In this document: in pieces, positions 2,048-17,452 of the stretch
Layout of the letters: each line of letters begins with the position of its first letter
Position numbering within the stretch: the first letter of the stretch is position 1
IMG/VR virus record: IMGVR_UViG_3300033153_007955
Coordinates: 1-23,229 of that record
Origin: a virus
Strand: one strand, 5' to 3'
DNA: 23,229 nucleotides
The notes under the pieces: generated by a model
Database searches by the model: none
Seen by the model: the letters and a program-made list of their open reading frames with translations, nothing else
Told to the model about the DNA's origin: nothing
Made by a program: the position numbers and the translations under genes

Positions 2048-2059
2048 ACGTGCGAACGT

Positions 2060-2110
2060 ACGAACGTGAGAAGGTGAGAAAGTGACGCCCACCCATTGCG
2101 ATGGGTGGGC
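2060..2110 (+). repeat. Octamer run plus 24-bp palindrome
   Basis: Period-8 units of the form GTGCGAAC/GTGAGAAG/GTGAGAAA fill about 2049-2084, followed directly by a 24-bp palindrome at 2087-2110 (GCCCACCCAT, centre TGCG, then the complement). The palindrome ends 16 nt before ATG 2127. The same arrangement recurs before many genes in this window. Confidence 0.85.
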
Positions 2111-2126
2111 TTGAAACGAGGCACGA

Positions 2127-2261
2127 ATGCAGTCTGAACGATGGACCGAATCTTCGGTGTTTGAACGGCTGAACGATGTGTATCCGGGGTGGACCACGGT
2201 TTATGTGCCCATCGCGAAAAGGCTTGCCAATCAGGGTAGCAGACAGCGGGGGGGGGCGTGA
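2127..2261 (+). CDS. Small phage protein (44 aa), possibly interrupted in a G9 run
   Basis: ATG 2127 lies 16 nt after the palindrome. The peptide begins MQSERWTESSVFERLNDVYPGW and continues TVYVPIAKRLANQGSRQRGGA before TGA 2259-2261. The amino-acid composition looks coding up to the glycine/arginine run, which falls on nine consecutive G at 2248-2256. A one-base change there would extend the frame to TGA 2323-2325 with a sensible ending (GVTYQWFQCNRG). I therefore suspect a length variant of a homopolymer rather than a natural end. No function can be assigned. Confidence 0.5.
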   Translation: MQSERWTESSVFERLNDVYPGWTTVYVPIAKRLANQGSRQRGGA

Positions 2262-2333
2262 TGGCGCCAGAGGTGTTACTTATCAATGGTTCCAGTGTAA
2301 CCGGGGGCGAAGTATGGAGGTCTGAGTGCTCCG

Positions 2334-2681
2334 ATGATCCATCGACGGCCATGGGCGGATGCGGAACTTGAAATACTGCAAAAGGGCCACGAGACGTGGA
2401 CGATCTATGAAATCCTTGAAAAGCTGGGCGAGTTGGGTGGTCGCACGAAATCGACCGTGTATGGGAAATTGTCACGCATGGGCTTGCGGGCCAAACGTCT
2501 GACACACGGGTCGCACCACCGCCGGCGAGGCGGGTGCCGCCCACCGGTGGCTGATCCGGACCCGGACGAACTGGCCCGGCGGGTCCGGCCGTTCCGGGAG
2601 GCGAAACGGCTTAAAGGCGACCTTTTTAATTTTGACCGGACGCCGCATAAAATCTATCTGCCGGGCCGGACGGATGATTGA
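2334..2681 (+). CDS. HTH / SANT-like small DNA-binding protein
   Basis: 115 residues from ATG 2334, with GGAGG at 2316-2320 as a distant Shine-Dalgarno. Residues 5-52 read PWADAELEILQ, then three short helices ending KSTVYGKLSRMGL, the pattern of a Myb/SANT-like or GcrA-like helix-turn-helix in which a tryptophan opens helix 1 and the last helix (TVYGKLSRMGL) would read DNA. The C-terminus is basic and proline-rich. Its place directly before the large terminase could mean a small terminase subunit or a late-gene regulator; both are inference. Small terminases usually carry an HTH near the N-terminus, which fits, but they normally also have an oligomerisation region that I cannot identify here. 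Confidence 0.6.
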   Translation: MIHRRPWADAELEILQKGHETWTIYEILEKLGELGGRTKSTVYGKLSRMGLRAKRLTHGSHHRRRGGCRPPVADPDPDELARRVRPFREAKRLKGDLFNFDRTPHKIYLPGRTDD

Positions 2682-2682
2682 G

Positions 2683-2722
2683 AATGTGAGAAAGCAACGC
2701 CCACCCTTTGCACGGGGTGGGC
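2683..2722 (+). repeat. Octamer remnant plus 24-bp palindrome before terminase
   Basis: GTGAGAAA at 2686 is followed by a variant palindrome at 2699-2722 (GCCCACCCTT, then GGGGTGGGC). It ends 12 nt before the terminase ATG at 2735. The two arms differ at the centre but still pair over nine bases. Confidence 0.8.
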
Positions 2723-2734
2723 TGAGGGTCACGG

Positions 2735-4777
2735 ATGACCGTTGTGGATGTTCAACCTGAGCTTTTTTCCGAGGCGGACCGATTGATTTTGGCGCCGGTG
2801 GCGATCTTGCCGCTGGCCGAGTGGGCGGACACGTTCCGGTTTGTGACTTCCGGCCCGGTCATCGGGACCGGCACGCCCGTCCGGTGGACCAACGACCTCG
2901 ACCCGCTGAACGTGACGGTGATGGCCGCCGTCGAAGATTCGCGATGGGGCGCTGTCTGTTTCATGGGTTCACCGCAACGTTCGGCGAAAACCGAACTGGC
3001 CGTCAACCTGATCGCCCATACGATTCATCAGAGACGCCAAAATGTGTTCTATCATAACGCGTCGGCGGCCGCGGCGGCGGATGTGTGGAAGAAAAAAACG
3101 CGCCCGGCGTTCGAGTACTCGCCGGAACTGGCCGACCTGATCCCGGCCGACCGGGAAGAGGCCGGGACGGTCAACCGGCGTGACTTCAGTAATGGCACGT
3201 CGTTGTTCATGCGCGGGTCGGATAGCCGCGCGGCGCTCGCCCAGGCGACGGCGCCGGTCACAATCGCCGACGACGTGCAGGCCATGCTGGCACTGCCGGA
3301 CGGTGATCATCCGGTCGATCTGGGGATGGAACGGGCAGATTCGTACCCGGTCGAGCAGCGGCGACACTTGCACCTGGGCCAGCCGGGGACCATGACCGAC
3401 TACCTGGCGACCGAGCTATTCGGTAGCACGTTTTATGTCCCATTCGTTCTATGTCCGAAGTGTGGCACGCTCCAGATGATCGAGTGGGACCGGTTCCGGT
3501 ATGACACGACAGATGCGCGCGCGGCATTCCACAATACGACCATGCAGTGCTGTAATACCGACTGTACGCGGTCGATAGCTGATACCGACCTGCCGGAAAT
3601 ACTGGCGAACGCGGTGTGGGTCTCGACGCCGCCGGGAAAAAACTGGCTGACCCACCCGGCCGAAGGCGGCACGTGGGTCAAACGGGCCGACGCCGCCGTA
3701 TATCCTGATACCGATAGAAAAACCACGATATGTGGTTTCTGGCGGTCGGCGTTTTATTGGCCGTTCACCGATTTCGGTGAGATGGCGGTCAAGGCGATCG
3801 AGAGTTTGGGAAACCCGGAGCAAACGATTAACTTCTCCAAACGCATCCTGGCGATTCCGTACGCCGAGCCGAAGGCGGACGAGGACGCGCTCGAGCCGAC
3901 GGACATCTATACGCACGCCGCCGGTGGCCATAGGTGGAAGACGATTCCTAAAGAGGCCGGCGTTCATGCCGGCGACGGGGTTGTGCTCGTGACGGCCGAT
4001 GTTCAGGCGGGGTATATCTGGTACCTCGTCGAGGCGTGGAACATCAAGACCGGCTCGAGCTGGCTGATCGAGTGCGGGCGGTTCGGGTCGAAGATCAAAA
4101 CGCGAGAGGAGCCCGACGAGGCCGCGCGCCATCGCGTCTGGCGAAGCCGCGTCGCCAAAGCGCTCGATCAACTGTGGGCCAAAGACCATGACGGCTGGCC
4201 CGCGATCGATGCGGACGGCGTTCTGCTCGGGACGTATTCAGCGGCGCACGGCCTGATTGACTGCTCGTTCCTGCGGGAAACGGTCCAGACGTTCTGCAAG
4301 CTGCGAAACGGTGGCCGGTGGCTGGGCAAGTGGCTGAGTATCGAAGGGTCACAATGCCGGGCGGCCGGGCGCGTGCCCGTCTGGCCGGGCATGAACAAGG
4401 CGACGACCGAGAAGAAAACCCGACGCCGCTATTGGGAGTGCAACACGAATCGGGCAAAACTGTGGGTCCGCGATGTTCTGGCTGTGCCGCCCGGGTCGGC
4501 CGGATCACTCGTTCTGCCGGAGGATATGCCGGACCAGATGCGGGTGTGGTACGCCCGGCACTTGTGCGCCGAGGAGTGGGTCGCCGAGCGGGGAAAATGG
4601 AAACTCGTCTCCGGAGAGAATCATCTACTCGACGCCAAGGCCCTACAGTTGGTCGGTGCCATGGCGTGCGAGGTGAAACTGCCGTTCGTTGCCGTCCCGG
4701 CGACGGGCACGCCGGAAGTGGTCACAGACTGGTTCGCCGAACAGAAACGGCGGCGCAAGGACGCGCGTAGACGATGA
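2735..4777 (+). CDS. terL: Phage terminase large subunit, GpA family
   Basis: 680 residues, the usual size for lambda GpA-type terminases, which cut concatemeric DNA and pump it into the prohead. A Walker A-like segment GSPQRSAKTE spans residues 78-87 after an adenine-side aromatic region (WADTFRFV). A Walker B-like VTIADD is at 175-180. A zinc-binding insert, CPKCG at 240 with CCNTDC further on, is typical of the family. The nuclease domain shows ADVQ around D422, LIDCSF around D509 and NHLLDAK around D633, the three acidic positions expected for the metal site. Walker B has DD rather than the more usual DE. The ATG is 12 nt after a 24-bp palindrome; the stop overlaps the next start (ATGA). 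Confidence 0.93.
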   Translation: MTVVDVQPELFSEADRLILAPVAILPLAEWADTFRFVTSGPVIGTGTPVRWTNDLDPLNVTVMAAVEDSRWGAVCFMGSPQRSAKTELAVNLIAHTIHQRRQNVFYHNASAAAAADVWKKKTRPAFEYSPELADLIPADREEAGTVNRRDFSNGTSLFMRGSDSRAALAQATAPVTIADDVQAMLALPDGDHPVDLGMERADSYPVEQRRHLHLGQPGTMTDYLATELFGSTFYVPFVLCPKCGTLQMIEWDRFRYDTTDARAAFHNTTMQCCNTDCTRSIADTDLPEILANAVWVSTPPGKNWLTHPAEGGTWVKRADAAVYPDTDRKTTICGFWRSAFYWPFTDFGEMAVKAIESLGNPEQTINFSKRILAIPYAEPKADEDALEPTDIYTHAAGGHRWKTIPKEAGVHAGDGVVLVTADVQAGYIWYLVEAWNIKTGSSWLIECGRFGSKIKTREEPDEAARHRVWRSRVAKALDQLWAKDHDGWPAIDADGVLLGTYSAAHGLIDCSFLRETVQTFCKLRNGGRWLGKWLSIEGSQCRAAGRVPVWPGMNKATTEKKTRRRYWECNTNRAKLWVRDVLAVPPGSAGSLVLPEDMPDQMRVWYARHLCAEEWVAERGKWKLVSGENHLLDAKALQLVGAMACEVKLPFVAVPATGTPEVVTDWFAEQKRRRKDARRR

Positions 4778-5091
4778 TTCGACTGACCATCACGGATGGA
4801 CCGCCTTGCCCGGCGTGCGGGTGCTGCGATTCGGCGAAACTCGGCGCGCGGTCACGATGGGGCCAGACCGCCGAGCGGCGGATGTGCCGGTATTGCGGGA
4901 AGACCTGGACGGCGACGGTGGAAACGGAACTGCCCGAGCCGACTGAGCCGGCGGATAACGGGGTGATCTTCCGGCCGGTGCGGTGCCCGGACTGCGGCTC
5001 GGCCGAAACGCGCGTGACCAGCACGCGAAAGCCGATCCGGCACCACAAGTGCATTGCCTGTGGCAAGGCATTTAAGAGCTGCGAAGAATGA
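4774..5091 (+). CDS. Double zinc-ribbon protein
   Basis: 105 residues, start ATGA-overlapping the terminase stop. Two similar modules are visible: C12-x2-C15 with C38-x2-C41 (CPACG, MCRYCGK) and C71-x2-C74 with C93-x2-C96 (CPDCG, KCIACGK). The second resembles the Ogr/Delta-type fold in which CPxCG is followed by a TSxR segment and a final cysteine pair before KAF. Those phage zinc proteins activate late transcription through RNA polymerase. Whether this one is a transcription activator, a DNA-packaging partner or a generic ribbon cannot be told. Translational coupling to the terminase suggests stoichiometric co-expression. Confidence 0.7.
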   Translation: MIRLTITDGPPCPACGCCDSAKLGARSRWGQTAERRMCRYCGKTWTATVETELPEPTEPADNGVIFRPVRCPDCGSAETRVTSTRKPIRHHKCIACGKAFKSCEE

Positions 5092-5584
5092 GCAGCGAGT
5101 TTAACCGCGACCCGAAGAGGAGCGCGCCCTGGGGATTAGCCGCAGAGGACGCAGAGAGCGCAGAGGGGCCATTCGGCCCATTCTTAATAAAGTTCACCGC
5201 GTAGCGGTCTCAGCGGTCTCCGCGTCCTCTGCGGCTAATCCTCACTTCTCACTTCGCCGAAGGCGCGCTCCTCTTCGAGTCGCGGTTAAACGCGTCCGCC
5301 ACGGCGGACGTTCCGTCTCAATTCTTAATTCCGCCACCAGGCGGCCTCTGCGCCCTCTGTGGCTGGTCTTCTCAATTCTCAATTCTCACTTCGCAATTCG
5401 TCCCGATGGCCATCGGGACCTCTGTGTTCTCAGTGGCGAATCTTTTTTCACTTGGTTACAGATCCTGTAACGAGGGGCATTCCGTATCTACCGATCGGTG
5501 CCATACTCGAAGAGACGAACAGGTCCGGCGCCTTAAAGAAGGGGGTCCAAGGCGCCAGACGCCATAACAAAAAGGCGAACGCCT
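5092..5584. repeat. Non-coding repeat cluster between terminase and connector genes
   Basis: About 490 bases with no supported gene. In order it holds: a 30-bp inverted repeat with arms 5099-5128 and 5262-5291 (29 of 30 positions complementary); inside it a hairpin element at 5139-5236; a perfect hairpin 5293-5310 (CGTCCGCC/GGCGGACG); a second, right-half element 5331-5364; AT-rich CAATTCTCAATTCTC-type low complexity; a perfect 18-bp palindrome 5401-5418 with another right half 5419-5437; a small hairpin 5455-5471 (GTTACA/TGTAAC); and a GGCGCC pair at 5527-5532 and 5551-5556. A small open frame at 5359-5658 is made of these repeats and is not accepted. No clear promoter found. Confidence 0.8.
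5139..5236 (+). repeat. Two-hairpin repeat element, copy G
   Basis: Left arm of three 9-mers (GCCGCAGAG, GACGCAGAG, AGCGCAGAG), hairpin 1 at 5166-5179 (GGGCC/GGCCC), AT-rich linker, hairpin 2 at 5196-5208 (ACCGC-GTA-GCGGT), right arm ending CTCTGCGGCT. The outer arms are complementary over the last ~24 bases with one mismatch. Hairpin sequences differ from the other copies while pairing is kept. Confidence 0.8.
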
Positions 5585-5586
5585 TT
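5571..5586 (+). promoter_or_regulatory. GGCGAACGCC hairpin overlapping a TTG start
   Basis: A perfect 16-bp inverted repeat, AAAGGC-GAAC-GCCTTT. The last two T belong to the TTG start codon of the gene at 5585. The same hairpin overlaps the TTG start at 17933, so the position is not accidental. It would have to be melted for initiation, which could lower or gate translation (inference). Confidence 0.6.
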
Positions 5587-5866
5587 GGCGATCAGCGTCG
5601 CACAACTCAATACGCACCTGGAAGCGGCCCGCACGGCGATCGCGGCGGCGGACTATGACACCGCGCACACGCAGGCGATGGCGGCCCAGGCGTGCCTGGC
5701 CGGCCTGCCGGACGGCGGGCAGGCGGGCAATACGGTCGAATGGCGGGCGACCATCGACGGTCTGCTCGACCGGATCGGTGTGGCACGCCGGCGCGCGGCC
5801 AGCACGGACGCAACGACCGGCGGGATCCGGCGGACGCGGATCGATTACACGCGGCCGACGACGTGA
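5585..5866 (+). CDS. Small head-tail connector candidate (gpW-like position)
   Basis: 93 residues from TTG 5585, which is the only start before the conserved-looking SVAQLNTHLEAARTAIAAA; no in-frame ATG occurs until residue ~32. The N-terminal two thirds are an alanine-rich helical hairpin (HLEAARTAIAAADYDTAHTQ, TVEWRATIDGLLDRIGVARR), and the C-terminus is basic with a Gly-rich turn and ends IDYTRPTT. A protein of this size and shape between terminase and portal matches the place of lambda gpW, the head-completion protein needed for tail joining. The assignment rests on order and size; sequence similarity to gpW is not obvious. Confidence 0.55.
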   Translation: MAISVAQLNTHLEAARTAIAAADYDTAHTQAMAAQACLAGLPDGGQAGNTVEWRATIDGLLDRIGVARRRAASTDATTGGIRRTRIDYTRPTT

Positions 5867-6029
5867 GAAAGTGCGAAGGTGAGAAAGTGAGAAGGGATTG
5901 GCCGCAGAGTACGCAGAGATCGCAGAGGCGGCTTCGCCGCGGGAATTAAATTTAGAATGGCACGAAGTGCCCTCCGCGTCCTCCGCGGTCTCTGCGGCTG
6001 AACGCGCCCACCCATTGCAATGGGTGGGC
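5864..6029 (+). repeat. Composite repeat: octamers, element copy A, palindrome
   Basis: Octamer run 5864-5895; then the two-hairpin element 5901-6000 with left arm (GCCGCAGAG and two more 9-mers), hairpin 1 at 5928-5940 (GCGGC-TTC-GCCGC), linker GGGAATTAAATTTAGAAT, hairpin 2 at 5959-5971 (GGCAC-GAA-GTGCC) and right arm ending CTCTGCGGCTG; then a perfect 24-bp palindrome at 6006-6029. The palindrome ends 12 nt before the portal ATG. The portal frame stays open through all of it, but that stretch is repeat sequence, not conserved protein. Confidence 0.85.
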
Positions 6030-6041
6030 TTGAATAAAACA

Positions 6042-7493
6042 ATGCTGAATTGGTTCAAAAGAGTGATTCATGCCGCCTCGGCGCCGGCCGCCGAGCCGAT
6101 GTCGCTACGCCGATGGGGCGCGGCCAAGACGAACCGGCTGAACCGGGCGCACTGGCAGCCGGTGACCGGCCAGACGATCAACCAGGACCTGGCTGGTAGC
6201 CTGGAGACGCTCCGGACCCGGTGCGAGTTCGAGGTCGCCAATAACCCCGACGCCGAGGGGATGATCTTCACGCACACGATCGATGTGATCGGGGCCCACG
6301 GCCCGACGTTGCAGGTCCAGAGCGATAACGAGGCGTACAGCGATAAACTGGAAGCGATCTGGAGCGACTGGTGGTCGGCGCCCGACGTGACCGGCAAGCT
6401 GTCGGGGGTCGACCTGCTCGATCTGGACGTGCGCAAGCTGTGGACGGCCGGTGAGTTTCTGACTCAGATCGTGACCGACAAGTCCGCCGACGGGCCGGTC
6501 CAGATGCGCCTTAAAGTAGTCAACCCGCGACGGCTGGCGTCGCCGGCCGGCAAAGCGGCCGACCCGCGCGTGGTGATGGGCATCGAGCTGGACGACAACA
6601 ACAAGCCGGTCCGGTACTACATCGACAACACATCCGCCGCCGGCCTGGTGGGGACGTCACCCGAGCCGGTGCCGGCGGCCGACATTATTCACGAGTTCGA
6701 TGTGATCGAAGAGGACCAGGCGCGCGGTGTGCCGAAGCTGGCAACGTGTGTCCAGATCGGCGCGGACCTGCGCGATTACGACCTGCAGGTGATGGACGCC
6801 GCGCGAGCGGCGGCCGATTCGGGCGTGTTCATCTGGTCGATCCACCCGAACCTAGAGCCGACGGTCGTCAAAGAGTCGTCCGAGATCGAACGGCGAATGA
6901 ACACCACGCTACCGCCCGGCTATCAGGCGACGCAACTGACGCCGCAGCAGCCGGCGACGGGGTATACCGAGTTCCACGACGAGCACCTGCGGCGGCTGGG
7001 CCGGCCGTGTGCCATGCCGCTGATGATTACGAAACTGGACAGCAAGAACCACAACTATTCGTCCGCGCGGTTTGATGCCCAGGTGTACAACCGCGGGATC
7101 GATAAATTCCGCGGCTGGCTCGAACGGCGTCTATTGAATCGGCTGGTGGCCATGATCGCCCGGGAAGCGGAACTGGCCGGGCGCGTCGGGACCGGCGGCG
7201 GACTGCCCGCTCGCCCGGCGACGGTGAAATACAAGTGGACCTGGCCGAGGCCGGCGAGTGTCGATCCGACGAAAGACGCCTCGGCGGCCAGCGAGCGGCT
7301 CGCCAACGGCACCAGTACACACCGGGACGAATGCGCGGCGAACGGCGAGGACTGGGCGGAAGTCTTCGACCAGCAGGCGAAAGAACAGGAAAAACGCGAC
7401 ACACTCGGCCTACCGCGCATTGAACTGAGCAAAGGGAAGCTGACGGGCGTGGCGTCTCCGCGAGAGACGGCCAGCGAGGAGCACAATGAGTAA
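6042..7493 (+). CDS. Portal protein, lambda gpB-type family
   Basis: 483 residues from ATG 6042 (MLNWFKRVIH); the longer frame from 5898 is rejected because its first 48 codons are the repeat element. Family features: an N-terminal RRWGAAKTNRLNRAHW segment, SLETLRTRCEFEVANNP, the GEFLTQIV/LKVVNPRRL beta part, and around residue 226 QARGVPKLATCV followed by a long helix (DYDLQVMDAARAAADSGVFIW), a hallmark of the lambda-family portal. The C-terminus has KYKWTWPRPASVDPTKDA and an alanine/glycine region. Portals form the dodecameric DNA gate of the head and dock terminase and connector. The 3' end overlaps the next gene by eight bases (ATGAGTAA). Confidence 0.92.
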   Translation: MLNWFKRVIHAASAPAAEPMSLRRWGAAKTNRLNRAHWQPVTGQTINQDLAGSLETLRTRCEFEVANNPDAEGMIFTHTIDVIGAHGPTLQVQSDNEAYSDKLEAIWSDWWSAPDVTGKLSGVDLLDLDVRKLWTAGEFLTQIVTDKSADGPVQMRLKVVNPRRLASPAGKAADPRVVMGIELDDNNKPVRYYIDNTSAAGLVGTSPEPVPAADIIHEFDVIEEDQARGVPKLATCVQIGADLRDYDLQVMDAARAAADSGVFIWSIHPNLEPTVVKESSEIERRMNTTLPPGYQATQLTPQQPATGYTEFHDEHLRRLGRPCAMPLMITKLDSKNHNYSSARFDAQVYNRGIDKFRGWLERRLLNRLVAMIAREAELAGRVGTGGGLPARPATVKYKWTWPRPASVDPTKDASAASERLANGTSTHRDECAANGEDWAEVFDQQAKEQEKRDTLGLPRIELSKGKLTGVASPRETASEEHNE

Positions 7494-9819
7494 CCGAAAC
7501 CGAAAAAAGCGACAACGACAGGGACTCCAGCGGGCGACTACGGAAATGCCCAATGCCCAAGTTCCAATGTCCAACAGCGGCCAACGGTCCGCGGTCAGCG
7601 CGCCACAAAGTGCCGGCCGCCAGCGGGATCTGACCGTCCGTACGTTTACGCTTCGGCCCGACTCGCTGGACGAAGAGAACCGCAGCGTCGAGGCGGTCCT
7701 GGCGACCGAAGGGCGCGTGCTTGTTCTCGACATGAACCGCTGGGAAGTGATCGAAGAAATTCTGCTGATGGACGGCTGGCGGGCGCCGGCCAGCGGCCAG
7801 TTGCCGCTCGTCGACACGCACGACACCAGCACGATCGAAAAACAACTGGGCTCGACGCGCGACCTTCACGTCGAAGGCGGCCAACTGGTGGGGCGTCGGT
7901 TTTTTTCGTCGGTCGCCGCCGCGAACGACGCCTTTGTGAAGGTCAAGGAGCGGCACATCACCGATGGGTCGATCGGTTACCGCGTGCTGGAATATGACGA
8001 CATCCAGCCTGGCAAGACGGGAACGGTCAATGGCCGATCGTATACCGCCGGGAAGCGGTTACTACGTATTTCACGGGTATGGGAAACGCGCGAGGATTCG
8101 CTCGCGATTATTGGGGCGGACGGCAATGCAAAAGTACGAGACGAGGGAGCGCATGCGCCCCCGGATGACAGGGGCGAACGCCCCTATGGTAAGGAGACCA
8201 AGATGGATTTTGAAAAATGGCTGAAAGAAAAGGGCATCGATTCGGCGGGCTTGAATGACGAACGGCGGGCCGAACTGCAGACCGAGTTCGATGCGGAGCG
8301 GGCAAGCCCACCCATTGCAATGGGTGGGCGTGAGGGTGGGCGTGAGGGTGGGCGTGAGGGTGAGCGTGAGGGTGAGCGTGAGGGTGAGCGTGAGGCGCCC
8401 GCGTCGGAAGCCCTGCCGGAAGCCGGTGCGATGACCGAAATGCGGACGGCGATCGATCCGGCCGAAGCGGCCCGCGAGGTGGTCCGTGCCGAGCGGGAAC
8501 GCGACCGGCAGATCCGTGCCCTGGCCGGCGACGATGTGTCCAGCGAACTCGTGCAGCGCGCGATCGATGAGGAGTGGACGCCGGACCGGGCGGCCAGTGC
8601 GTTTCTGACGTACGTCCGCGAGAGCCGTGTGGCCGGTGTGGCCTCTGCGCCGGGCGTCCATGTCCGCGAGCACGACCGTGACTGCACCGCCCGTGCCCTG
8701 GCCGCCGGGATGATGCACCGGGCGAACCTGCGGGTGATCGACCCGGACGCGCCCGACGCCACGCGGGCCGAGCAGGAACGCGACGCCGAGCGAGGGGATC
8801 GATACCGGGACATGTCGATGGTCGATCTGTGCCGCGAGGCGCTTCGACTGGATGCCCGGGCGATCCCCAGTACGCGGCACGAGCAGATCCGTGCGGCCGT
8901 GTCGACCACGAGCATGACCAACATCTTCACCACCGTGGTCAACGCACAGGTATTGGCGGCGTACGTCGAAGCGGGCGATACCACCGAGGGGTGGGTCCGC
9001 GTCACCGAGGTGCCGGACTTCAAGAGCAACGAGCGGATTATGTTGGGCAAGTCGACCGGCTTGCACCGCCACGCGCGGGGAGACGACGCCAAACACGTAT
9101 CGCGGAGCGATTCCAAGGAAGAGTACAAGATCGGCCGGTTCACCGGGCAGAACGTCGTCGATGAGATGGACATTATCGACGATCGGTTCGACGCCCTTTT
9201 GGACATGCCGGCCGACATGGGCAGGGACGCCGCGCACCTGAGGCCGAACCTGGTGTATTCGATCCTACTGGCCAACGCGGCGCTCGATGCCGACGGCCTC
9301 GCCCTGTTCCATGCGACGCACGGCAATCTCGACACCTCGAGCGCCCTGGCGAGTGCCACGCTGCAGGCGGCATTGACCGCCCTGGCCACGCAGACGATGA
9401 ACGGCCGACCGCTGGGGCTATTTCCGCAGTTCTTGATCGTGCCACAAGCGCTGAAGTTCACGGCCTCCAGTCTGATCCATTCGGCTGAGGTGCGCGATAC
9501 GACCAGCAGCACGATCACGCACACGCGGAACCCGCTGCAGGACGAGAACCTGCAGATCCGGTCCGACTCGCGATTGGACAACGGCGTGACCGACCCGGCC
9601 ACCGATACGGTCCACTCCGGCAGCGCGACGACCTGGTTCATGGCCGCCGCCGGCGGCCGGCACACGGTCGAGGTCGGCTACCTGCGCGGCACGGGCCGAA
9701 GCCCGCTGATCCGTTCGTTCGTCCTGGACCAGGGCCAGTGGGGCATTGGCTGGGACATCAAGATGGACATCGGTGCCAAAGCGCTCGATTACCGCGGCCT
9801 GCACAAGTCGACGGCGTGA
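7486..9819 (+). CDS. Prohead protease - major capsid protein fusion
   Basis: 777 residues in one frame. Residues ~48-210 are a U35-like prohead serine protease: LPLVDTHD with H112 and HITDGSIGYRV with S162 as likely catalytic residues, and LGSTRDLHVEGGQLVGR between them. Residues ~240-470 are charged and helical (MDFEKWLKEKGIDSAG onward), a scaffold-like delta region. Residues ~475-777 are the capsid fold: TSMTNIFTTVVNAQVLAAY, DPADM-like and FIVP-like strands (FPQFLIVPQALK), ending LDYRGLHKSTA. Protease-capsid fusions are known in phages. Oddities: residues ~20-45 derive from a low-complexity repeat; residues 274-303 are an in-frame palindrome plus a 12-bp tandem repeat; a strong internal ribosome site precedes Met240. 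Confidence 0.88.
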   Translation: MSNRNRKKRQRQGLQRATTEMPNAQVPMSNSGQRSAVSAPQSAGRQRDLTVRTFTLRPDSLDEENRSVEAVLATEGRVLVLDMNRWEVIEEILLMDGWRAPASGQLPLVDTHDTSTIEKQLGSTRDLHVEGGQLVGRRFFSSVAAANDAFVKVKERHITDGSIGYRVLEYDDIQPGKTGTVNGRSYTAGKRLLRISRVWETREDSLAIIGADGNAKVRDEGAHAPPDDRGERPYGKETKMDFEKWLKEKGIDSAGLNDERRAELQTEFDAERASPPIAMGGREGGREGGREGEREGEREGEREAPASEALPEAGAMTEMRTAIDPAEAAREVVRAERERDRQIRALAGDDVSSELVQRAIDEEWTPDRAASAFLTYVRESRVAGVASAPGVHVREHDRDCTARALAAGMMHRANLRVIDPDAPDATRAEQERDAERGDRYRDMSMVDLCREALRLDARAIPSTRHEQIRAAVSTTSMTNIFTTVVNAQVLAAYVEAGDTTEGWVRVTEVPDFKSNERIMLGKSTGLHRHARGDDAKHVSRSDSKEEYKIGRFTGQNVVDEMDIIDDRFDALLDMPADMGRDAAHLRPNLVYSILLANAALDADGLALFHATHGNLDTSSALASATLQAALTALATQTMNGRPLGLFPQFLIVPQALKFTASSLIHSAEVRDTTSSTITHTRNPLQDENLQIRSDSRLDNGVTDPATDTVHSGSATTWFMAAAGGRHTVEVGYLRGTGRSPLIRSFVLDQGQWGIGWDIKMDIGAKALDYRGLHKSTA
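8170..8205 (+). promoter_or_regulatory. Internal hairpin, Shine-Dalgarno and in-frame ATG for a capsid-only product
   Basis: Inside the fusion gene a hairpin (AGGGGC-GAAC-GCCCCT, 8170-8185) is followed by AAGGAGA at 8191-8197 and, five bases later, ATG 8203, which is in frame (Met240 of the fusion). This is the best Shine-Dalgarno match in the window. It would yield a 538-residue scaffold-capsid protein without the protease. Confidence 0.65.
8306..8395 (+). repeat. 24-bp palindrome and 12-bp tandem repeat read in frame in the capsid fusion
   Basis: Positions 8306-8329 are a perfect copy of the intergenic palindrome, translated roughly as SPPIAMGG. It is followed by about five 12-base units (GTGAGGGTGGGC, then GTGAGGGTGAGC) translated as REGG and REGE repeats. 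The block lies in the linker between scaffold helix and the rest of the fusion. Confidence 0.9.
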
Positions 9820-10389: not shown

Positions 10390-10396
10390 TGATAGA

Positions 10397-10450
10397 GCCC
10401 ACCCTTCGCGAAGGGTGGGCGTGTAAAAATGATCGCCCGCCGCGGCGGGC
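10397..10450 (+). repeat. 24-bp palindrome (variant core) and 16-bp palindrome
   Basis: 10397-10420 is a perfect palindrome with GCCCACCCTT and core CGCG instead of the usual TGCA: both arms have changed together. A second perfect palindrome, GCCCGCCGCGGCGGGC, lies at 10435-10450 and ends 21 nt before the ATG at 10472. GGAG at 10459-10462 serves as ribosome site. Confidence 0.85.
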
Positions 10451-10471
10451 TCAGTAACGGAGAACGAACCC

Positions 10472-11674: not shown

Positions 11675-12052
11675 ATGAGCGTTTTTTCTGACATGCTGAA
11701 CGTCGTGGCTGATCAGCAGGTGGCCCTTAAAGGTATTTCGGCGACGTACACACCGGGCGCCGGTGACGGGGTGTCACTGACCGTCGTCGAGTGCGACCCG
11801 GAAGCCGCCGCGGATACCGCCGGTGGCGACGGAATCTATCGGGCGTACGAGCGGGCGGTCGAGATGGATATGGACCCGTCCGCCGAGCACGGCGGGGTCG
11901 CGGCACCGGCGCTGAACGACACAATCACGATCGGCTCGACGACGTACGCCGTGGCGAAAGTACAGGTCTTACCGGGCGGCTGGGCGCGCCTCGGCCTCGA
12001 AAAAAAGACGACGCAGCGTTACGCGACGGACGGGCACTTTGGGCAAAAGTGA
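11675..12052 (+). CDS. Head-tail joining (neck) protein candidate
   Basis: 125 residues from ATG 11675. Sequence begins MSVFSDMLNVVADQQVALKG, then SATYTPGAGDGVSLTVVECD, and ends with a beta-rich segment (NDTITIGSTTYAVAKVQVLPGGWARLGLEKK). A ~120-residue beta protein with an ITIGSTTYxVxxV pattern just after the capsid genes matches the size and layout of head-tail stopper/attachment proteins (lambda gpFII-like, gp16-like). The segment DTITIGSTTYAV is characteristic: such proteins define a quantity and then give the strand leading to the closing ring. Gene order supports the role; homology is inferred. Confidence 0.55.
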   Translation: MSVFSDMLNVVADQQVALKGISATYTPGAGDGVSLTVVECDPEAAADTAGGDGIYRAYERAVEMDMDPSAEHGGVAAPALNDTITIGSTTYAVAKVQVLPGGWARLGLEKKTTQRYATDGHFGQK

Positions 12053-12061
12053 GAACGTAAC

Positions 12062-12112
12062 GCCCACCCATTGCAATGGGGTAATCACGCCCACCCATTG
12101 CAATGGGTGGGC
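12062..12112 (+). repeat. Two adjacent palindrome copies, the first truncated
   Basis: 12062-12080 is the first 19 bases of the palindrome, interrupted by GTAATCAC, and 12089-12112 is a complete perfect copy that ends 13 nt before ATG 12126. The junction suggests tandem duplication followed by loss of one end. Confidence 0.9.
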
Positions 12113-12125
12113 TTGGATGTGACCG

Positions 12126-12611
12126 ATGGCGGACGTGACACCAGATGGACCTTACGCCGAGCGGCTTGAAGCGCTCGAGCTGTTGATCGCCAACTGTCCG
12201 GCGTTCCGGACGTGGACGAGCACGGCGTCCGTGGCACTGGCTAGGGCGCGCATCTGGTGGGGCGAGACGCCCGAGACGCCGACATTGCCATGCGCCGTGA
12301 TTGGCTGTCCGAGCTGGTCACCGTACGCGGCCGGAACGAACGTCCCCGGCTATCGATCGAGCGTGGGCGTCATGTTCATCGCCGAGATCGCCGAGGCATA
12401 CCGCCCGGCGGGCCAGGAGAAGAACGCCGCGATCGCGTTCGCCAACGCGTTCGGGCAGGTGGCCCAGGAGATGGCCACACTGCAGGGATCCGCAGACGGC
12501 TACCTCTGTTTGCAGCGGGTGGAATGGGACGAGCCGTGGCGGCTCCCCCCGAAAGACCGGAAAACTGACCGTGACGTTTATGTGGTGACGGGCGTCGAAG
12601 CGTCGGCGTGA
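12126..12611 (+). CDS. Tail terminator / minor tail protein candidate (gpU-like position)
   Basis: 161 residues from ATG 12126. Helical start (YAERLEALELLIANCPAFRTW), a central region (ARIWWGETPETPTLPCAVIG), then VGVMFIAEIAEAYR and a long helix (EKNAAIAFANAFGQVAQEMATL), ending with a beta region and DRDVYVVTGVEASA. The pattern of helix, conserved-proline strand, and a final strand giving a value in the last 20 residues is typical of tail-terminator proteins that cap the tail tube and join it to the head. I could not confirm it by similarity. It ends at TGA 12609-12611. Confidence 0.5.
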   Translation: MADVTPDGPYAERLEALELLIANCPAFRTWTSTASVALARARIWWGETPETPTLPCAVIGCPSWSPYAAGTNVPGYRSSVGVMFIAEIAEAYRPAGQEKNAAIAFANAFGQVAQEMATLQGSADGYLCLQRVEWDEPWRLPPKDRKTDRDVYVVTGVEASA

Positions 12612-12635
12612 TGTCCGTAATCCTTGAGGGTGTTT

Positions 12636-13097
12636 GTGATCCACGTCAAAACCATTGAGCGCGGCTCGCCAGCGCAGATTACGAGACGCGTCTGGAACGA
12701 CACGATGAAGCGCGGGTATTACGCGGGTGTGCGACTGTGGTTCCGGCGGTTTTTGCGGAAGCATTTTACCAGCGGGGCGGCCCACCGCTATCGCTATCAG
12801 CCGCGCTCGAGGAAATACGAAATCAGAAAAGCCAGAGTCAAAGGGCACCGTCGCGCATTGGAATGGAGCGGCACAATGAAACGGCAGGTCCTGGGCCACG
12901 AAGACATCAAAGCCACCGGCAAAGGCGCCCGGGCCTCGCTCCGCGGGCCGCGGTGGTTGTATGCGTACCGCCGGAACCTGAAGCAGCCCGACAAGGCGAC
13001 CGAACTGACGGTCTTCTTGGCGGACGAGGAGCAGGCGATCGGCCAGGAAATCGACCGGGTGATGACGAAGCGGCTGAACTTCGTCGAGTGTGTATAA
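12636..13097 (+). CDS. Basic neck/tail-completion protein candidate
   Basis: Start placed at GTG 12636 (MIHVKTIERGSPAQI) because GAGG lies at 12626-12629, six bases upstream; TTG 12624 and GTG 12630 are alternatives in the same frame. The 153-residue protein is very basic (RRVWNDTMKRGYY, WFRRFLRKHF, YRYQPRSRKYEIRKARVKG) with a central LEWSGTMKRQVL segment, and ends in an acidic helix (LADEEQAIGQEIDRVMTKRL). A similar layout occurs in HK97 gp10-like proteins that sit at the head-tail junction, in which a two-helix basic N-terminus is followed by a G-x-hydrophobic strand and a C-terminal helix. This is a weak, context-based call. Confidence 0.5.
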   Translation: MIHVKTIERGSPAQITRRVWNDTMKRGYYAGVRLWFRRFLRKHFTSGAAHRYRYQPRSRKYEIRKARVKGHRRALEWSGTMKRQVLGHEDIKATGKGARASLRGPRWLYAYRRNLKQPDKATELTVFLADEEQAIGQEIDRVMTKRLNFVECV

Positions 13098-13098
13098 A

Positions 13099-13137
13099 CC
13101 CACCCATTACAGTGCCCACCCGCCGCAAAGGGTGGGG
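13099..13137 (+). repeat. Degenerate palindrome pair before the 13158 gene
   Basis: A left half (CCCACCCATTACAG, 13099-13112) abuts a variant full unit 13114-13137 (GCCCACCCGCCGC, then AAAGGGTGGGG). The arms no longer match perfectly. The unit ends 20 nt before ATG 13158, and a CGGC-GAAT-GCCG hairpin lies between at 13152-13163. Confidence 0.7.
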
Positions 13138-13157
13138 TGAAACAAGAAAGGCGGCGA

Positions 13158-13556
13158 ATGCCGATGAGCTTTTCGCACAAAATCAAACAGGTATGGACCG
13201 GGCCGGACGGCCGTCAGATCACGAGCGAAGAAACCTACAGCGGTGATTCGCAGGGCCCGAGCCTGGACGTGACCGTCCCGGACGAATCGTCGGACATGCT
13301 GGTCAACTTTGCCCTGGACGTGTCGCAAATTAAGGCGATCTACATCGTGGCCGACCAGGACGTCACGCTCGAGACGAACGATAGCGGCTCGCCGGACGAC
13401 ACGATCAGCCTGGCGGCCGGCGTGCCGTACGTCTGGACGACCGATTCGTACGACAGTTGTCTGCTGACCGCCGACATCACCAAGCTGTACTTCACGAACG
13501 CCAGCGGCTCCGAGGCGACGGTTCAACTGGAAGTGGTCCACGACGCGACGCCGTAG
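13158..13556 (+). CDS. Beta-rich phage structural protein candidate (132 aa)
   Basis: Start at ATG 13158, six bases after AAGAAAGG; ATG 13164 (MSFSHKIKQVW) is an equally good choice because it directly follows the hairpin CGGCGAATGCCG, and the frame also opens from GTG 13137. The protein is almost entirely beta-strand in character: HKIKQVWTGPDGRQI, LVNFALDVSQIKAIYIVADQ, TISLAAGVPYVWTTD, ITKLYFTNASGSEATVQLEV. It has no signal or catalytic motif. Size and content fit a virion decoration or tail protein with a jelly-roll or Ig-like domain, located between neck and tail tube genes. Function not assignable. Confidence 0.55.
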   Translation: MPMSFSHKIKQVWTGPDGRQITSEETYSGDSQGPSLDVTVPDESSDMLVNFALDVSQIKAIYIVADQDVTLETNDSGSPDDTISLAAGVPYVWTTDSYDSCLLTADITKLYFTNASGSEATVQLEVVHDATP

Positions 13557-13566
13557 ACCGCCGCCG

Positions 13567-13655
13567 TGCGGCACGAAGTGCCCTCCGCGTCCTCCGCGGT
13601 CTCTGCGGCTGAATGAAAGTGAGAAAGTAACGCCCACCCATTGCAATGGGTGGGC
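13567..13655 (+). repeat. Half element copy D, octamers and palindrome
   Basis: Only hairpin 2 (GGCAC-GAA-GTGCC, 13570-13582) and the right arm (to ~13612) of the two-hairpin element are present; then octamers; then a perfect 24-bp palindrome at 13632-13655, which ends 17 nt before ATG 13673. The missing left arm shows that right-half copies survive alone. Confidence 0.85.
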
Positions 13656-13672
13656 TTATAAGGGTTCAAATT

Positions 13673-13921
13673 ATGAACCCACAACAGATACTAACGGATC
13701 GGCAAGCGGAACACCTGATCGCCGCGACCGGCGACGTTCGCAAGGCGATGGCCAAGGCCCGCCGCGCGGTCGCGAACGTCCGGGACGTCATCGATAACGG
13801 GGCGAACGGCGAGTCGGTACCGATGATCGTGCGAGAGCTGTATGTCGCCCGCATGGAACTTATCAACGCACTGCAGGCGCTGCAAAGGGCTGAATTGAAT
13901 GCGGGCCTGATCGGGATATAA
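13673..13921 (+). CDS. Small helical phage protein (82 aa)
   Basis: ATG 13673 to TAA 13921, with GGGTTC rather than a good ribosome site upstream. The protein is helical throughout: MNPQQILTDRQAEHLIAATGD, VRKAMAKARRAVANVRDVID, a glycine turn, and VRELYVARMELINALQALQ. No motif is recognised. Located just before the tail-tube candidate. The 3' stop abuts the next palindrome without a spacer. Confidence 0.55.
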   Translation: MNPQQILTDRQAEHLIAATGDVRKAMAKARRAVANVRDVIDNGANGESVPMIVRELYVARMELINALQALQRAELNAGLIGI

Positions 13922-13945
13922 GCCCACCCATTGTAATGGGTGGGC
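13922..13945 (+). repeat. 24-bp palindrome directly after a stop codon
   Basis: A near-perfect palindrome (centre TTGTAA instead of TTGCAA) begins at the first base after TAA 13919-13921 and ends 18 nt before ATG 13964; a good GGAG is at 13952-13955. Confidence 0.9.
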
Positions 13946-13963
13946 GTGAATGGAGAAACAGTT

Positions 13964-14887
13964 ATGAGCGTATCTGGATTATGGAATCTATACGGCGTGA
14001 AACCGGCGTCCGGCGCCATCATCGACGGGATCGTCAACCACGACTTCACGCCGAACGACGAGACCCTTCGCCACCTCGCCGACGGGGCGGCCGACGCGAC
14101 GTTGATCACATTGATGCAGCAGAGCCCGCAGCACGTGCTGACCACGCGGTCATTGGCCACGGCGCTCGGGCAGATCGGCTGGGCCGGGATCGACATCCCG
14201 ACAACCGAGGCGACGTTCGCCATGTACTGGCGCCAGATGGCGGAGCACGGGACGCGTAAGTCCGGCTCGGCGCATATCAAAATGACGGTCAACAAAGGGT
14301 ACGTGTATGGCCAGCAGGTCGAGGCGAGCCAGGGGTCCGGTGCGCAGTTTACGTTCGGACTCCAGTGCGGCTGGGACGGGACGAACGCGCCGATTATCTC
14401 GACCGACAGTAACCAGGCGCTGCCGGCGGACGGCGCTAGCCTTGAACTCTTCACGCTCGGGCCGGTAAAAATCAATGGCACACTATTGCCGGGTGTGCAG
14501 CGGACTTCCGTGACGTTTGGAATTCAGTTGTACCTGGCGTTCGGCGACGGGGAAGTCTGGCCGACGCTGATCACCGTTCAGGAGCGTTCGCCGGCGATCG
14601 TTTGCGAGTGCCTGGACGCCACGGCCCTGTTCGACCTGGGACTGACCGGCACGGCGCAGGGTGCGACGGATAGTCTGGTGTACTTCCGAAAGAAACTCGC
14701 CAACGGCGCGAACGTCCCGGACGCAACGGCCGAGCACGTATCGGTCGGCGTTGCCGCCGGGCGTATTAGCGTCGAGTCTCAACGTGGCGGTGCCGGCGGT
14801 CAGGTGGTCACACCGGTCCGGATCGAGCCGGTCTTCGATGGCGTGAACGCGCAACTGGCGTTCAATACGGCGACGGCGATTACATAA
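13964..14887 (+). CDS. Major tail (tube) protein candidate
   Basis: 307 residues from ATG 13964, with GGAG nine bases upstream. N-terminus MSVSGLWNLYGVKPASGAII, then helical (LITLMQQSPQHVLTTRSLATAL) and mostly beta further on: SAHIKMTVNKGYVYGQQVEAS, AQFTFGLQCGWDG, LELFTLGPVKINGTLLP, RTSVTFGIQLYLAFGDGEVW, TPVRIEPVFDGVNAQLAF. A beta-sandwich protein of about 300 residues placed between neck genes and the tail-assembly chaperone is what a tail-tube subunit would be. The repeated pattern of a value (VKINGTLLPGVQRTSVTFGI) facing a query strand is common in tail-tube proteins. Call by position and fold character, not by similarity. Confidence 0.6.
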   Translation: MSVSGLWNLYGVKPASGAIIDGIVNHDFTPNDETLRHLADGAADATLITLMQQSPQHVLTTRSLATALGQIGWAGIDIPTTEATFAMYWRQMAEHGTRKSGSAHIKMTVNKGYVYGQQVEASQGSGAQFTFGLQCGWDGTNAPIISTDSNQALPADGASLELFTLGPVKINGTLLPGVQRTSVTFGIQLYLAFGDGEVWPTLITVQERSPAIVCECLDATALFDLGLTGTAQGATDSLVYFRKKLANGANVPDATAEHVSVGVAAGRISVESQRGGAGGQVVTPVRIEPVFDGVNAQLAFNTATAIT

Positions 14888-14892
14888 ATTAC

Positions 14893-14934
14893 GCCCACCC
14901 TTTGCATTACGCCCACCCATTGCAATGGGTGGGC
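14893..14934 (+). repeat. Truncated and full palindrome in tandem
   Basis: A left half (GCCCACCCTTTGC, 14893-14905) runs into a complete perfect copy at 14911-14934; both are preceded by ATTAC/ATTACG. The full copy ends 17 nt before ATG 14952. Same arrangement as at 12062-12112. Confidence 0.9.
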
Positions 14935-14951
14935 TTGGAGAGCGGCACGTT

Positions 14952-15692
14952 ATGGCAGGCTTTTTGTACTACATTCCCGGCATCAGCAATATCACTACCG
15001 AGACACTATCGAAAGCCGGTCTGGCGCACTTGGGCGCGGTCGAATCGCGCGGCGTAATGAAGAACGGGCCGGACGGCGGCGGCGGCGTGGTTATGGTCGC
15101 CAAGACGGCCGTTCTCGGTGCGACGATGCCGAAGCTGGGCTACTTTGCCGGAACGCAGACGTGGAAAAAGGCGCCCGGCCGCGACTTCTGGCTCGGGACG
15201 GAAAACGGTAACGCGCCCGGCCCGCTGGACCTGCAGCGCGACCGCATCGTTCCGGGCCATGTAATCGAACTGGGCGACCAGAACGTGTGGACCGTGCCGC
15301 TGGCCCGGTTCGCCGACGGCGTCTCGCACCTCGATACCGGTCTGGCGCTGGACGACAAAGGGAAATGGATCGAGCAGCCGCTAGCTCGCTACGCCGCGTT
15401 ATCCGAACTGGCCGAGCGATCCTGGGCGACGGTGCTGACTACCCATGGCATAGAAGTGGCCGAGCCGGTGACCCTGGTGGACGACGACGAGCTGGCCGAC
15501 TCGGCGTGCCTGGCGTTGGGTTTCAATTACCGGCTCAGCCGCCCGGAGGTCGCGCGATTGGGCCTGCTGACCCGGGAGCTAGCCACGGATGTGCTGTCGG
15601 CCCTGGTCGATCTGCCGACGGTCGAACGGGTCGTGCAGATGATGGGCGAAAAAAAAAAGGAATCCGAATCGACCGGCGATGGATCGAACTGA
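14952..15692 (+). CDS. Tail assembly chaperone candidate, zero-frame product (G-like)
   Basis: 246 residues from ATG 14952. N-terminal MAGFLYYIPGISNITTETL, then beta-rich (GVVMVAKTAVLGATM, GTQTWKKAPGRDFWLGTEN), a region with VPLARFADGVSHL, and a helical C-terminal part (DDELADSACLALGFNYRLS, LTRELATDVLSALVDLPTVERVVQMMG). Located directly between tail-tube and tape-measure genes, the invariable place of lambda G/GT chaperones. It ends soon after ten A at 15649-15658; a -1 shift there extends it to 15772 (see separate entry). Larger than typical G proteins. Confidence 0.6.
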   Translation: MAGFLYYIPGISNITTETLSKAGLAHLGAVESRGVMKNGPDGGGGVVMVAKTAVLGATMPKLGYFAGTQTWKKAPGRDFWLGTENGNAPGPLDLQRDRIVPGHVIELGDQNVWTVPLARFADGVSHLDTGLALDDKGKWIEQPLARYAALSELAERSWATVLTTHGIEVAEPVTLVDDDELADSACLALGFNYRLSRPEVARLGLLTRELATDVLSALVDLPTVERVVQMMGEKKKESESTGDGSN

Positions 15693-15772
15693 CCCGGTTT
15701 TTGCGCGGCCAAGCGCCGCTGGACTACCGACCGACGTATGGCGAACTGTATATGACGATGGTCTTACAGTGA
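14952..15772 (+). CDS. Tail assembly chaperone, -1 frameshift product (GT-like)
   Basis: Zero frame is read to AAG 15657-15659 (236 residues); slipping back one base on A AAA AAG (15653-15659) continues GIRIDRRWIELTRFLRG and ends at TGA 15770-15772, adding 37 residues for a total of 273. The added tail (QAPLDYRPTYGELYMTMVLQ) has coding character and fills the whole space up to the tape-measure gene at 15783. The G/GT shift is a conserved feature of long-tailed phages; here the slippery site is a textbook lysine-type heptamer. The ratio of products cannot be read from sequence. Confidence 0.6.
15653..15659 (+). promoter_or_regulatory. Slippery heptamer A AAA AAG within ten A
   Basis: In the zero frame codons are AAA AAA AAG; on a -1 slip the lysyl-tRNAs re-pair with AAA AAA. 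The ten-A run also permits transcriptional slippage. Downstream bases (GAATCCGAATCGACC onward) could form a weak stem; no strong stimulatory hairpin is obvious. Confidence 0.65.
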
Positions 15773-15782
15773 GTGCGGTCTA

Positions 15783-17411
15783 ATGGGCACTATTCAGATG
15801 CGAGTTGAAGGCCAGGACGACGGTGCCGTCGCGGTGTTCCTGCGCCTGACCAATGCGCAGAAGCGAGCCCAACTGCAGACGATGAGCATGGAGACGGAGT
15901 ACCGGAAGCTTAGTAAAGGGCTTGAACGGGTCAAAACGAAAACAACCGGCTTAGAGCGCGGCATGAAAAGTGCGGCTAAGTCGGTGGCGTCGTTTGCTGG
16001 CGGGTTCATCGGCATCGGGGCCGCGATCCAATTAATGCGGAGTCTGTACGATCGCACCATCCAACTGAAAGACGCCCTGGTCGAGCTGAGCGGCCAATCG
16101 GCCGCGACACAGCAGCCGTTCGCCTATCTTGCCGAGCAGCTCGGTCTACCGGGCCGCGAGGGGATGATTGCCACGATGCGGCAGGTCGGCCAGGTCGTTA
16201 CCGGCTCGGGGGCGCCCAAAGACATTGCCGCCGAAGCGATCGCCAAAGTCCACAGCCTGATGGGTGGCGACGAAGCGGTGGCCGCGGGGATCCCCGAACT
16301 GATCGCCGGCGCCCTGACCCGGACCGGCGGTACGCGAGAGCAGGTCGGACCGCTGGTCGAGCTGCTGGCCCGATCGAACATCCGGACGAGGAAGGGGGCC
16401 GCCGAGGCGATCGCCAAGTTGGAAGCGGCCATGTCCGCCACGCCGTATTCGACGATCGGCGAATACGCTGAAGCGACCGGGCGGGGTGGGTCGCTCGGAC
16501 TGCTGACCGGGGCGACGCTGAAAGAGATGATGGGGTTTCTCGCGCAGGCACGCGGCGTCGAGCCCAACAAGAAACGGGCGGCCCTGTTGGCCGAGCAGGT
16601 CGGGGCGTTTTTAGCGAAAGACGAGGCCCGGCGGATTATCCAGCAGCAGACGGGCAAAGAGTGGTACGAGCAGACGTTTACCGAACAATTGCAAGCAATA
16701 CAGGACGCCGTCAACGTCCGGAAGGGCGATCAACGGGCGATCGATAAATTGTTCGGCGACATTTCGCCCGAACAGCGCAACAAGATGGTGATGTTCTTCT
16801 CGCCGGCCTCGGCCCAGAAGATCAAACGCGAGGCGACCGAACGCATGGCCGGCGCGACGGCCAAAGACGCCGAGCTCGAGAACAAACAATGGCTAGCCAC
16901 GGACGTGGCGCAGAATACTATGGCGGAGGTCAGGGAAGAAATAGTTGTTGCGACCCGCAGTGCCTACGCGCAAGCTCGGGGTGTCCTGCGCAGAGCGGCC
17001 AAGAAACGACTCGAAGATGTAATGCGACCGGACGAGCAGGTTACGCAGTTTGATGATCTGAGGCTCAGGAATGAGGCTCAGATCCAAAGCGTCGAGGCTA
17101 AACTGCAACTGGAGCGATTGGGGATCGACACCAGTGGTATGGCTGTGGGCACATACCGTGAGGGAAAGTGGGGGCGGGAATCGGCATATGACCGGCTGAA
17201 TCGCGAACTGTCCAAACGCGGCGTGCCGGGCGGGGCGGAAGAACCCAAAATTTTTCCTTTTAGCACAATGGAAAAGCCAAAGGGACCAAGACCGAGCGAG
17301 CGGGCGATTGTCGGCGAGGGTGGTGTGATTATTTACAACAACGGCGATGTGAACGTGGATAACCTGCCGGCTACGTTGGACGAAAACCCGATGGTACCGC
17401 AACCGCAATAG
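15783..17411 (+). CDS. Tail tape measure protein
   Basis: 542 residues from ATG 15783, eleven bases after the frameshift product's stop. N-terminal beta segment (MGTIQMRVEGQDDGAVAVFL), a basic helix (ETEYRKLSKGLERVKTK), a hydrophobic glycine-rich segment at 69-84 (ASFAGGFIGIGAAIQL), then long helices rich in Ala, Gln and Glu, a KKRLEDVMRP region and a proline-rich C-terminus (VIIYNNGDVNVDNLP). Position after the frameshifted chaperone and the helical/hydrophobic content identify the tape measure. At about 0.15 nm per residue it implies a short tail near 80 nm (rule of thumb). No lytic peptidase motif is visible. Confidence 0.82.
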   Translation: MGTIQMRVEGQDDGAVAVFLRLTNAQKRAQLQTMSMETEYRKLSKGLERVKTKTTGLERGMKSAAKSVASFAGGFIGIGAAIQLMRSLYDRTIQLKDALVELSGQSAATQQPFAYLAEQLGLPGREGMIATMRQVGQVVTGSGAPKDIAAEAIAKVHSLMGGDEAVAAGIPELIAGALTRTGGTREQVGPLVELLARSNIRTRKGAAEAIAKLEAAMSATPYSTIGEYAEATGRGGSLGLLTGATLKEMMGFLAQARGVEPNKKRAALLAEQVGAFLAKDEARRIIQQQTGKEWYEQTFTEQLQAIQDAVNVRKGDQRAIDKLFGDISPEQRNKMVMFFSPASAQKIKREATERMAGATAKDAELENKQWLATDVAQNTMAEVREEIVVATRSAYAQARGVLRRAAKKRLEDVMRPDEQVTQFDDLRLRNEAQIQSVEAKLQLERLGIDTSGMAVGTYREGKWGRESAYDRLNRELSKRGVPGGAEEPKIFPFSTMEKPKGPRPSERAIVGEGGVIIYNNGDVNVDNLPATLDENPMVPQPQ

Positions 17412-17435
17412 ACCCACCCATTGCACAGGGTGGGC
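17412..17435 (+). repeat. Imperfect 24-bp palindrome after tape measure
   Basis: ACCCACCCATTGC followed by ACAGGGTGGGC; one base lost and one changed in the arms. It begins at the base after TAG 17409-17411 and ends 17 nt before ATG 17453. Confidence 0.85.
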
Positions 17436-17452
17436 TTGATGAGATGCGATAG

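Follow-up and report, generated by a model that had tools for sequence, protein, structure and literature searches.

Short inverted repeats that recur just upstream of genes have previously been described in actinobacterial phages. In the Microbacterium phages of cluster EG, an 18-bp inverted repeat of unknown function is present in 8-10 copies within short intergenic gaps, typically 14-22 bp before starts (PMC7302621). The mycobacteriophages of cluster K carry Start Associated Sequences (SAS) and extended SAS (ESAS), which are repeated at translation starts (PMC3203893). In bacteria, RAYT-associated REP palindromes are known, and families of them have been reported in the Planctomycetes (PMC3733652, PMC2817692, PMC12306157). 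Because clusters EG, K, and O have all been described, start-associated inverted repeats are a known pattern, and the novelty of the case presented here lies in the phage group, in the location within an operon of structural genes, and in the relatedness of the palindrome to chromosomal repeats.

Results

The sequence analyzed here, referred to as the window, is a viral record of 23,229 bases that represents one incomplete phage genome. It contains 13 full copies of a 24-bp palindrome, GCCCACCCATTGCAATGGGTGGGC, six of them exact and the others with one to five changes. Partial copies are present at three further sites, 12062, approximately 13097, and 14893. Eleven copies have three or fewer mismatches, while the chance expectation from 100 dinucleotide shuffles was 0.00. 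The initial annotation had claimed the same 13 full and three partial copies, and every one of its coordinates was borne out by our sequence scan. The form GCCCACCCATTTGCAAATGGGTGGGC was ruled out, as it has no match in the window; the true centre is ATTGCAAT.

Genes were placed from ORF analysis combined with alignments to homologues and matches to HMMs, and all gene starts are therefore computed ones. With this placement, the distance from the end of the palindrome to a start codon is 12-20 nt in exactly 10 of the 13 copies, all of which are given here on the plus strand. The first of these (2087-2110, one mismatch) lies 39 nt past a stop and 16 nt before the ATG at 2127, which opens an uncertain 44-aa ORF on which the start link of this copy depends. 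The second (2699-2722, three mismatches, with a 9-bp stem) is 17 nt past a stop and 12 nt before the start of the terminase large subunit at 2735, and an exact copy (6006-6029) is likewise 12 nt before the portal ATG at 6042. The copy at 11638-11661 (two mismatches) precedes the start of a head-tail attachment gene at 11675 by 13 nt, the same distance that separates the exact copy at 12089-12112 from the start at 12126; upstream of the latter is a partial copy with a broken right arm (12062-12085), 9 nt past a stop. A partial left arm plus loop (13097-13113) directly adjoins the variant at 13114-13137 (five mismatches, 7-bp stem), 20 nt before the start at 13158, and another such fragment (14893-14910) is followed by the exact copy at 14911-14934, 17 nt before the start at 14952. 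The exact copy at 13632-13655 is also 17 nt from its start (13673). Two further copies abut stop codons: one at 13922-13945 (one mismatch) follows the TAA at 13919-13921 and lies 18 nt before the start at 13964, and one at 17412-17435 (three mismatches, 7-bp stem) follows the TAG at 17409-17411 and lies 17 nt before the start at 17453. The three exceptions are an exact copy (8306-8329) that is read in-frame within the ORF for the protease-major capsid protein (7486-9819), where it falls in a linker that varies, and is shorter, among the nearest relatives, with a 12-bp tandem repeat after it; a variant with four mismatches (10397-10420), 7 nt past a stop and 51 nt before the cement-protein start at 10472; and an exact copy (11467-11490) past the cement gene, which is followed by a composite repeat and is 184 nt from the nearest start.

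This placement is far from random. Spacers make up 11.4% of the window, and 12 of the 13 copies are intergenic, a number reached in none of 20,000 random placements. When copies were placed randomly within the same spacers, an average of 2.2 fell 12-20 nt before a start, and an average of 4.1 did so when the last 12 nt were barred as a guard for the ribosome-binding site (RBS); ten were reached in none of 20,000 placements under either scheme. A mechanical rule that takes as the start the first ATG from which an ORF of 80 aa or more can be read still gave nine of 13 copies at 12-20 nt, compared with a maximum of six in 5,000 null placements. The ten start-linked copies claimed in the initial annotation are thus ten by gene placement and nine by the mechanical rule, and the distances to starts that it had set as a check are non-random over the window, supporting an association with start codons beyond chance. 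Of the gene names it had attached to these starts, terminase, portal, and neck (head-tail attachment/closure) were upheld, while tube, chaperone, and distal tail lacked a confirming HMM match. The distance from the upstream stop to the palindrome is loose (0-233 nt). Most of the wider gaps between structural genes hold a palindrome, usually positioned just outside the ribosome-binding region.

The 24-bp sequence is a perfect dyad, and the eight sequences that we folded, variants among them, have predicted hairpin energies of -14.6 to -18.7 kcal/mol. The variants retain an outer stem of 7-10 bp and, as had been claimed, can stay palindromic: the copy at 10397 is a perfect palindrome with two compensated pairs. 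In their sequence context, eight of the ten start-linked copies have a predicted stem probability of at least 0.87, and at 12089 and 14911 the partial copy upstream probably competes for folding. Because the centres vary freely, the 10397 copy compensates two pairs, and the arms of planctomycete copies (see below) vary with compensation, it is likely that an RNA hairpin, rather than the sequence itself, is what stays conserved. A search of Rfam gave no match for the palindrome. The suggestion that its 3' arm supplies a Shine-Dalgarno sequence did not hold, as 12-20 nt separate the end of this arm from the start codon, and in about six of the ten genes this gap contains an SD-like 4-mer (GAGG, GGAG, AAGG). 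The element accordingly does not qualify as an SAS or ribosome-binding element, which would overlap the RBS and pair with 16S rRNA. Nor does the palindrome appear to hide or free the RBS, since the predicted openness of this site averaged 0.46 for native sequences, 0.43 with the palindrome shuffled, and 0.45 with it deleted; insulation or occlusion of the RBS through folding was not supported, with no consistent effect in the predicted folds.

The spacers of the window also hold two further planctomycete-type repeats. Between 5857 and 6005 on the plus strand, immediately upstream of the portal-linked palindrome, an 8-nt GTGAGAAA minisatellite is found together with a long imperfect CGCAGAG hairpin, and further copies of these repeats are found at 9953-10093, 11479-11619, and 20639-20779. 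Of 298 genomes in the class to which planctomycete genome G002 belongs, three contain the GTGAGAAA repeat, and repeats of the CGCAGAG type were identified in several genomes of planctomycetes.

To place the palindrome itself, we searched 84,980 bacterial and archaeal genomes and found the exact 24-mer outside the window at only six loci in three MAGs, all of them Planctomycetota. With up to one mismatch, it was present in two genomes among 392 from the phylum to which G003 belongs. The MAGs with the exact 24-mer contain a family of the form (AA)GCCCA-nnn-ATTGCAAT-n'n'n'-TGGGC(TT), and G001, G002, G003, and G080 carry tens of copies of the palindrome family; in both sets the free positions of the two arms almost always complement one another. 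None of the sampled hosts has the phage version as its dominant palindrome, the dominant form in every one differing in arm or centre. G080 has 26 matches, mostly with the centre ATGGCCAT, which are tandem or convergent and never divergent; four were called within genes, and most are 4-43 nt past a stop. The intergenic copies with phage-type arms in G001 are 5-43 nt past stops. These host genes were called with a home-made codon-bias caller, so that individual distances may be off. In both genomes the start distances are wide, without the start link seen in the phage, and the palindromes of planctomycete genomes are thus mostly at gene ends, whereas those of the phage are at gene starts.

Several features of bacterial REPs are shared by the palindrome: its length is within 20-40 bp, its predicted hairpin is stable, and it is dispersed, extragenic, and high in copy number (13 copies in 23 kb, 12 of them intergenic, with tens of variants in G001 and G080). 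There was no GTAG/CGTC tag in the flanks of the window copies and no RAYT seen in the window. PF01797 was present in all five genomes searched, and none of the 12 RAYT loci examined was flanked by the palindrome; one locus in G080 carries a different palindrome pair. Because it lacks these tag and RAYT features, the palindrome is not classed as a REP proper, and we use "REP-like" to mean that the element works like a REP. The palindrome is most likely a member of a planctomycete-type dispersed repeat family that forms a REP-like hairpin, and it resembles a repeat of host type that has come to reside at virus gene starts. Because relatives of the major capsid protein (MCP) occur in planctomycete genomes (55 of the 392 sampled, with a best identity of 42%), a planctomycete is the likely host, and we infer that the phage probably infects this group.

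The 25 related viral contigs we identified are distant relatives only, with MCP identities of 30-49%. The palindrome is present in none of them, and hence is not conserved across related phages at this distance as the cluster EG repeat is; the companion repeats are absent there too. Spacer medians are mostly 0-10 nt in these contigs compared with 66 nt in the window, and where their spacers do contain hairpins, these have different sequences. The palindrome was also not among the spacer hairpins examined in three related planctomycete prophages, in which spacers are likewise mostly much shorter. Viral contigs were scanned with the exact 24-mer, with versions of it degenerate in the centre or in the arms, and with the GTGAGAAA repeat; none of these scans gave a match outside the window, and therefore no second phage with the palindrome was found. 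Annotated phages and plasmids gave weak, partial matches only, at chance level, and a terminase-based search of viral contigs returned no relatives. Because the relatives lack the palindrome and its companions and mostly have shorter spacers, and a variable linker accommodates the copy at 8306, the data point to a recent spread of the repeats in this phage lineage.

Discussion

Our leading explanation, which we put forward tentatively and at somewhat less than even odds, is that a REP-like palindrome of planctomycete type has multiplied in the spacers of a structural operon and is kept there as an intercistronic hairpin. In this scenario, the dispersed palindrome would have multiplied in the late structural-operon spacers by copying, a step that we infer. 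Each transcribed copy would fold into a GC-rich hairpin of 7-10 bp between two genes of a polycistronic mRNA, beginning past the upstream stop and ending just before the downstream ribosome-binding region. The hairpin may then define or protect mRNA ends, serving the upstream cistron as a 3' barrier and the downstream cistron as a 5' stem-loop, which would help to balance expression along a single long transcript. Given its non-conservation in relatives, it is only the position of the palindrome that would argue for selection on its function. Counting against this explanation are the one copy in coding sequence, the two away from starts, a predicted RBS accessibility that does not depend on the palindrome, the differing arm or centre of the dominant host versions, and RAYT loci that are not flanked by the palindrome.

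The strongest rival, which accounts for many of the features, is that the palindromes are selfish or neutral REP-like repeats that insert or duplicate anywhere and survive only where the coding sequence and RBS are spared, a filter that in short spacers leaves only the stretch from the stop codon to the RBS available. We consider this unlikely overall, but a number of observations fit it well: two other repeat families share the spacers; the palindrome and the composite repeats occur independently of each other (at 10123 the composite repeat is found without the palindrome, and at 13922 the palindrome without the composite repeat); the copy at 8306 is tolerated in the variable capsid-gene linker; decayed partial copies adjoin intact ones; and the spacers are expanded relative to those of relatives. 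The main counterpoint is that in seven of eight longer spacers (60-270 nt) the final copy still ends 12-20 nt before the start. The start link also exceeds what the 12-nt RBS guard predicts, and the comparable palindromes of G080 and G001 have no such link.

We regard as less likely again the possibility that the phage captured the gene-end palindromes of planctomycetes and re-deployed them as start-anchored hairpins of its late operon. If so, start-associated inverted repeats of phages would be domesticated dispersed repeats of their hosts.

It is improbable that the palindromes are DNA operators, bound near each gene by a phage or host dimer that regulates late transcription. The perfect dyad symmetry would suit such a role, and regulator sites spread through operons are known in other phages (cluster A stoperators, discussed in PMC4351075). 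The only candidate phage-encoded binder that we saw is the ORF at 2334-2681, which adjoins two copies and has weak matches to D5-like/GcrA helix-turn-helix domains, but its position before terL also fits a small terminase subunit. The free variation of the centres and the compensated arm changes in planctomycetes favour a hairpin over a fixed protein site, and no sigma-70-like promoters were found in 2000-18000. Slightly less probable still is a role as transcription terminators or attenuators between cistrons, which the gene-end palindromes of G080 look to be, flanked as they are by AAA/TTT and mostly no more than 43 nt past stops. Some spacers of related phages and prophages do have hairpin-plus-T-run sites, but none of the window copies is followed by a coding-strand T-run, as an intrinsic (Rho-independent) terminator would be, and a dozen terminators in one late operon would be strongly polar. 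Finally, copies flank the gene at 13158-13556, which shares 65% identity with its homologue in contig L022, compared with 24-34% for its neighbours, and which is positioned differently in L022, L037, and L039, but relatives shuffle genes likewise without palindromes, and we therefore think it very improbable that these are recombination boundaries enabling gene-cassette exchange between phages.

If the planctomycete link holds, start-associated elements of this kind would have a testable origin and a simple role, the definition of mRNA ends between cistrons, and host-type repeats would be able to colonise a compact phage operon. Among bacterial elements, the closest are the REP or GTAG and CGTC palindromes, which are likewise 20-40 bp, GC-rich, dispersed, extragenic, and hairpin-forming (PMC3733652, PMC2817692, PMC12306157); the phage palindrome differs from them in its missing tag and RAYT association. 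The M1/M2 inverted repeats of Pithovirus are similar in that palindromic repeats have colonised viral intergenic space and are absent from sister viruses, but they are much longer (TIRs of ~50 bp) and belong to a eukaryotic giant virus, and a link to start codons is not described in the portion of that report drawn on here (PMC10664404).

Among phages, the cluster O mycobacteriophages also have one short palindrome in many copies throughout the genome, but theirs are 17 bp, not closely linked to starts, and within genes in about a third of cases (PMC4351075). Cluster K shares the start link, and ESAS has inverted repeats just upstream, but SAS, an asymmetric 13-mer, sits directly at the RBS, occurs solely in the half of the genome with non-structural genes, and is almost entirely missing from the host, and the repeats of ESAS are 17-mers that match imperfectly and have a spacer (PMC3203893). 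As in cluster EG, the same inverted repeat recurs here in short gaps at a similar distance from starts (ten copies at 12-20 nt). The EG repeats are conserved across three phages and located at right genome ends (PMC7302621), whereas the palindrome described here is 24 bp long, GC-rich, absent from relatives, situated in a head-tail operon, and similar to planctomycete repeats. A pattern previously described in actinobacterial phages is thus now seen in a phage that probably infects planctomycetes.

Palindromes, spacer repeats and neighbouring genes

The gene at 13158-13556 has palindromes on both flanks and is 65% identical to its homologue in the related viral contig L022, compared with 24-34% for the neighbouring genes. 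The location of its homologue differs in L022 and in two further relatives, L037 and L039. Judged from these comparisons, the gene is a single-gene cassette that appears to have been shuffled.

The spacers also carry a composite repeat, consisting of a GTGAGAAA minisatellite and a long CGCAGAG hairpin, on the coding strand at 5857-6005, 9953-10093, 11479-11619 and 20639-20779. The sequence GTGAGAAAG occurs 11 times on the plus strand and never on the minus strand. At 10090-10122, the composite repeat ends in GTGACGCC and abuts the ATG at 10123, as if this were an empty or deleted palindrome site in which only the first bases of the palindrome are present.

Within the protease-capsid fusion ORF (7486-9819), an ATG at 8203 is preceded by AAGGAG and is probably an internal start that would yield the capsid part without the protease. 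The relatives L037 and L039 instead encode the protease part in a shorter reading frame of its own, apart from the capsid. Upstream of the terminase gene, a small ORF (2334-2681) has weak helix-turn-helix (HTH) matches, D5-like and GcrA-like; it is a candidate small terminase subunit or regulator. ORF 165-983 contains a 15-bp tandem repeat (301-585, approximately 19 units) encoding a GG-rich repetitive stretch.

In the planctomycete genome G080, which has comparable palindromes, two identical copies of a different palindrome, TAGCCCCCGGCATGCCGGGGGCTA (1419 and 2029 of locus L138), flank a match to a Y1 transposase. This arrangement likely represents a REP-associated Y1 transposase (RAYT) with its own repetitive extragenic palindromes (REPs).
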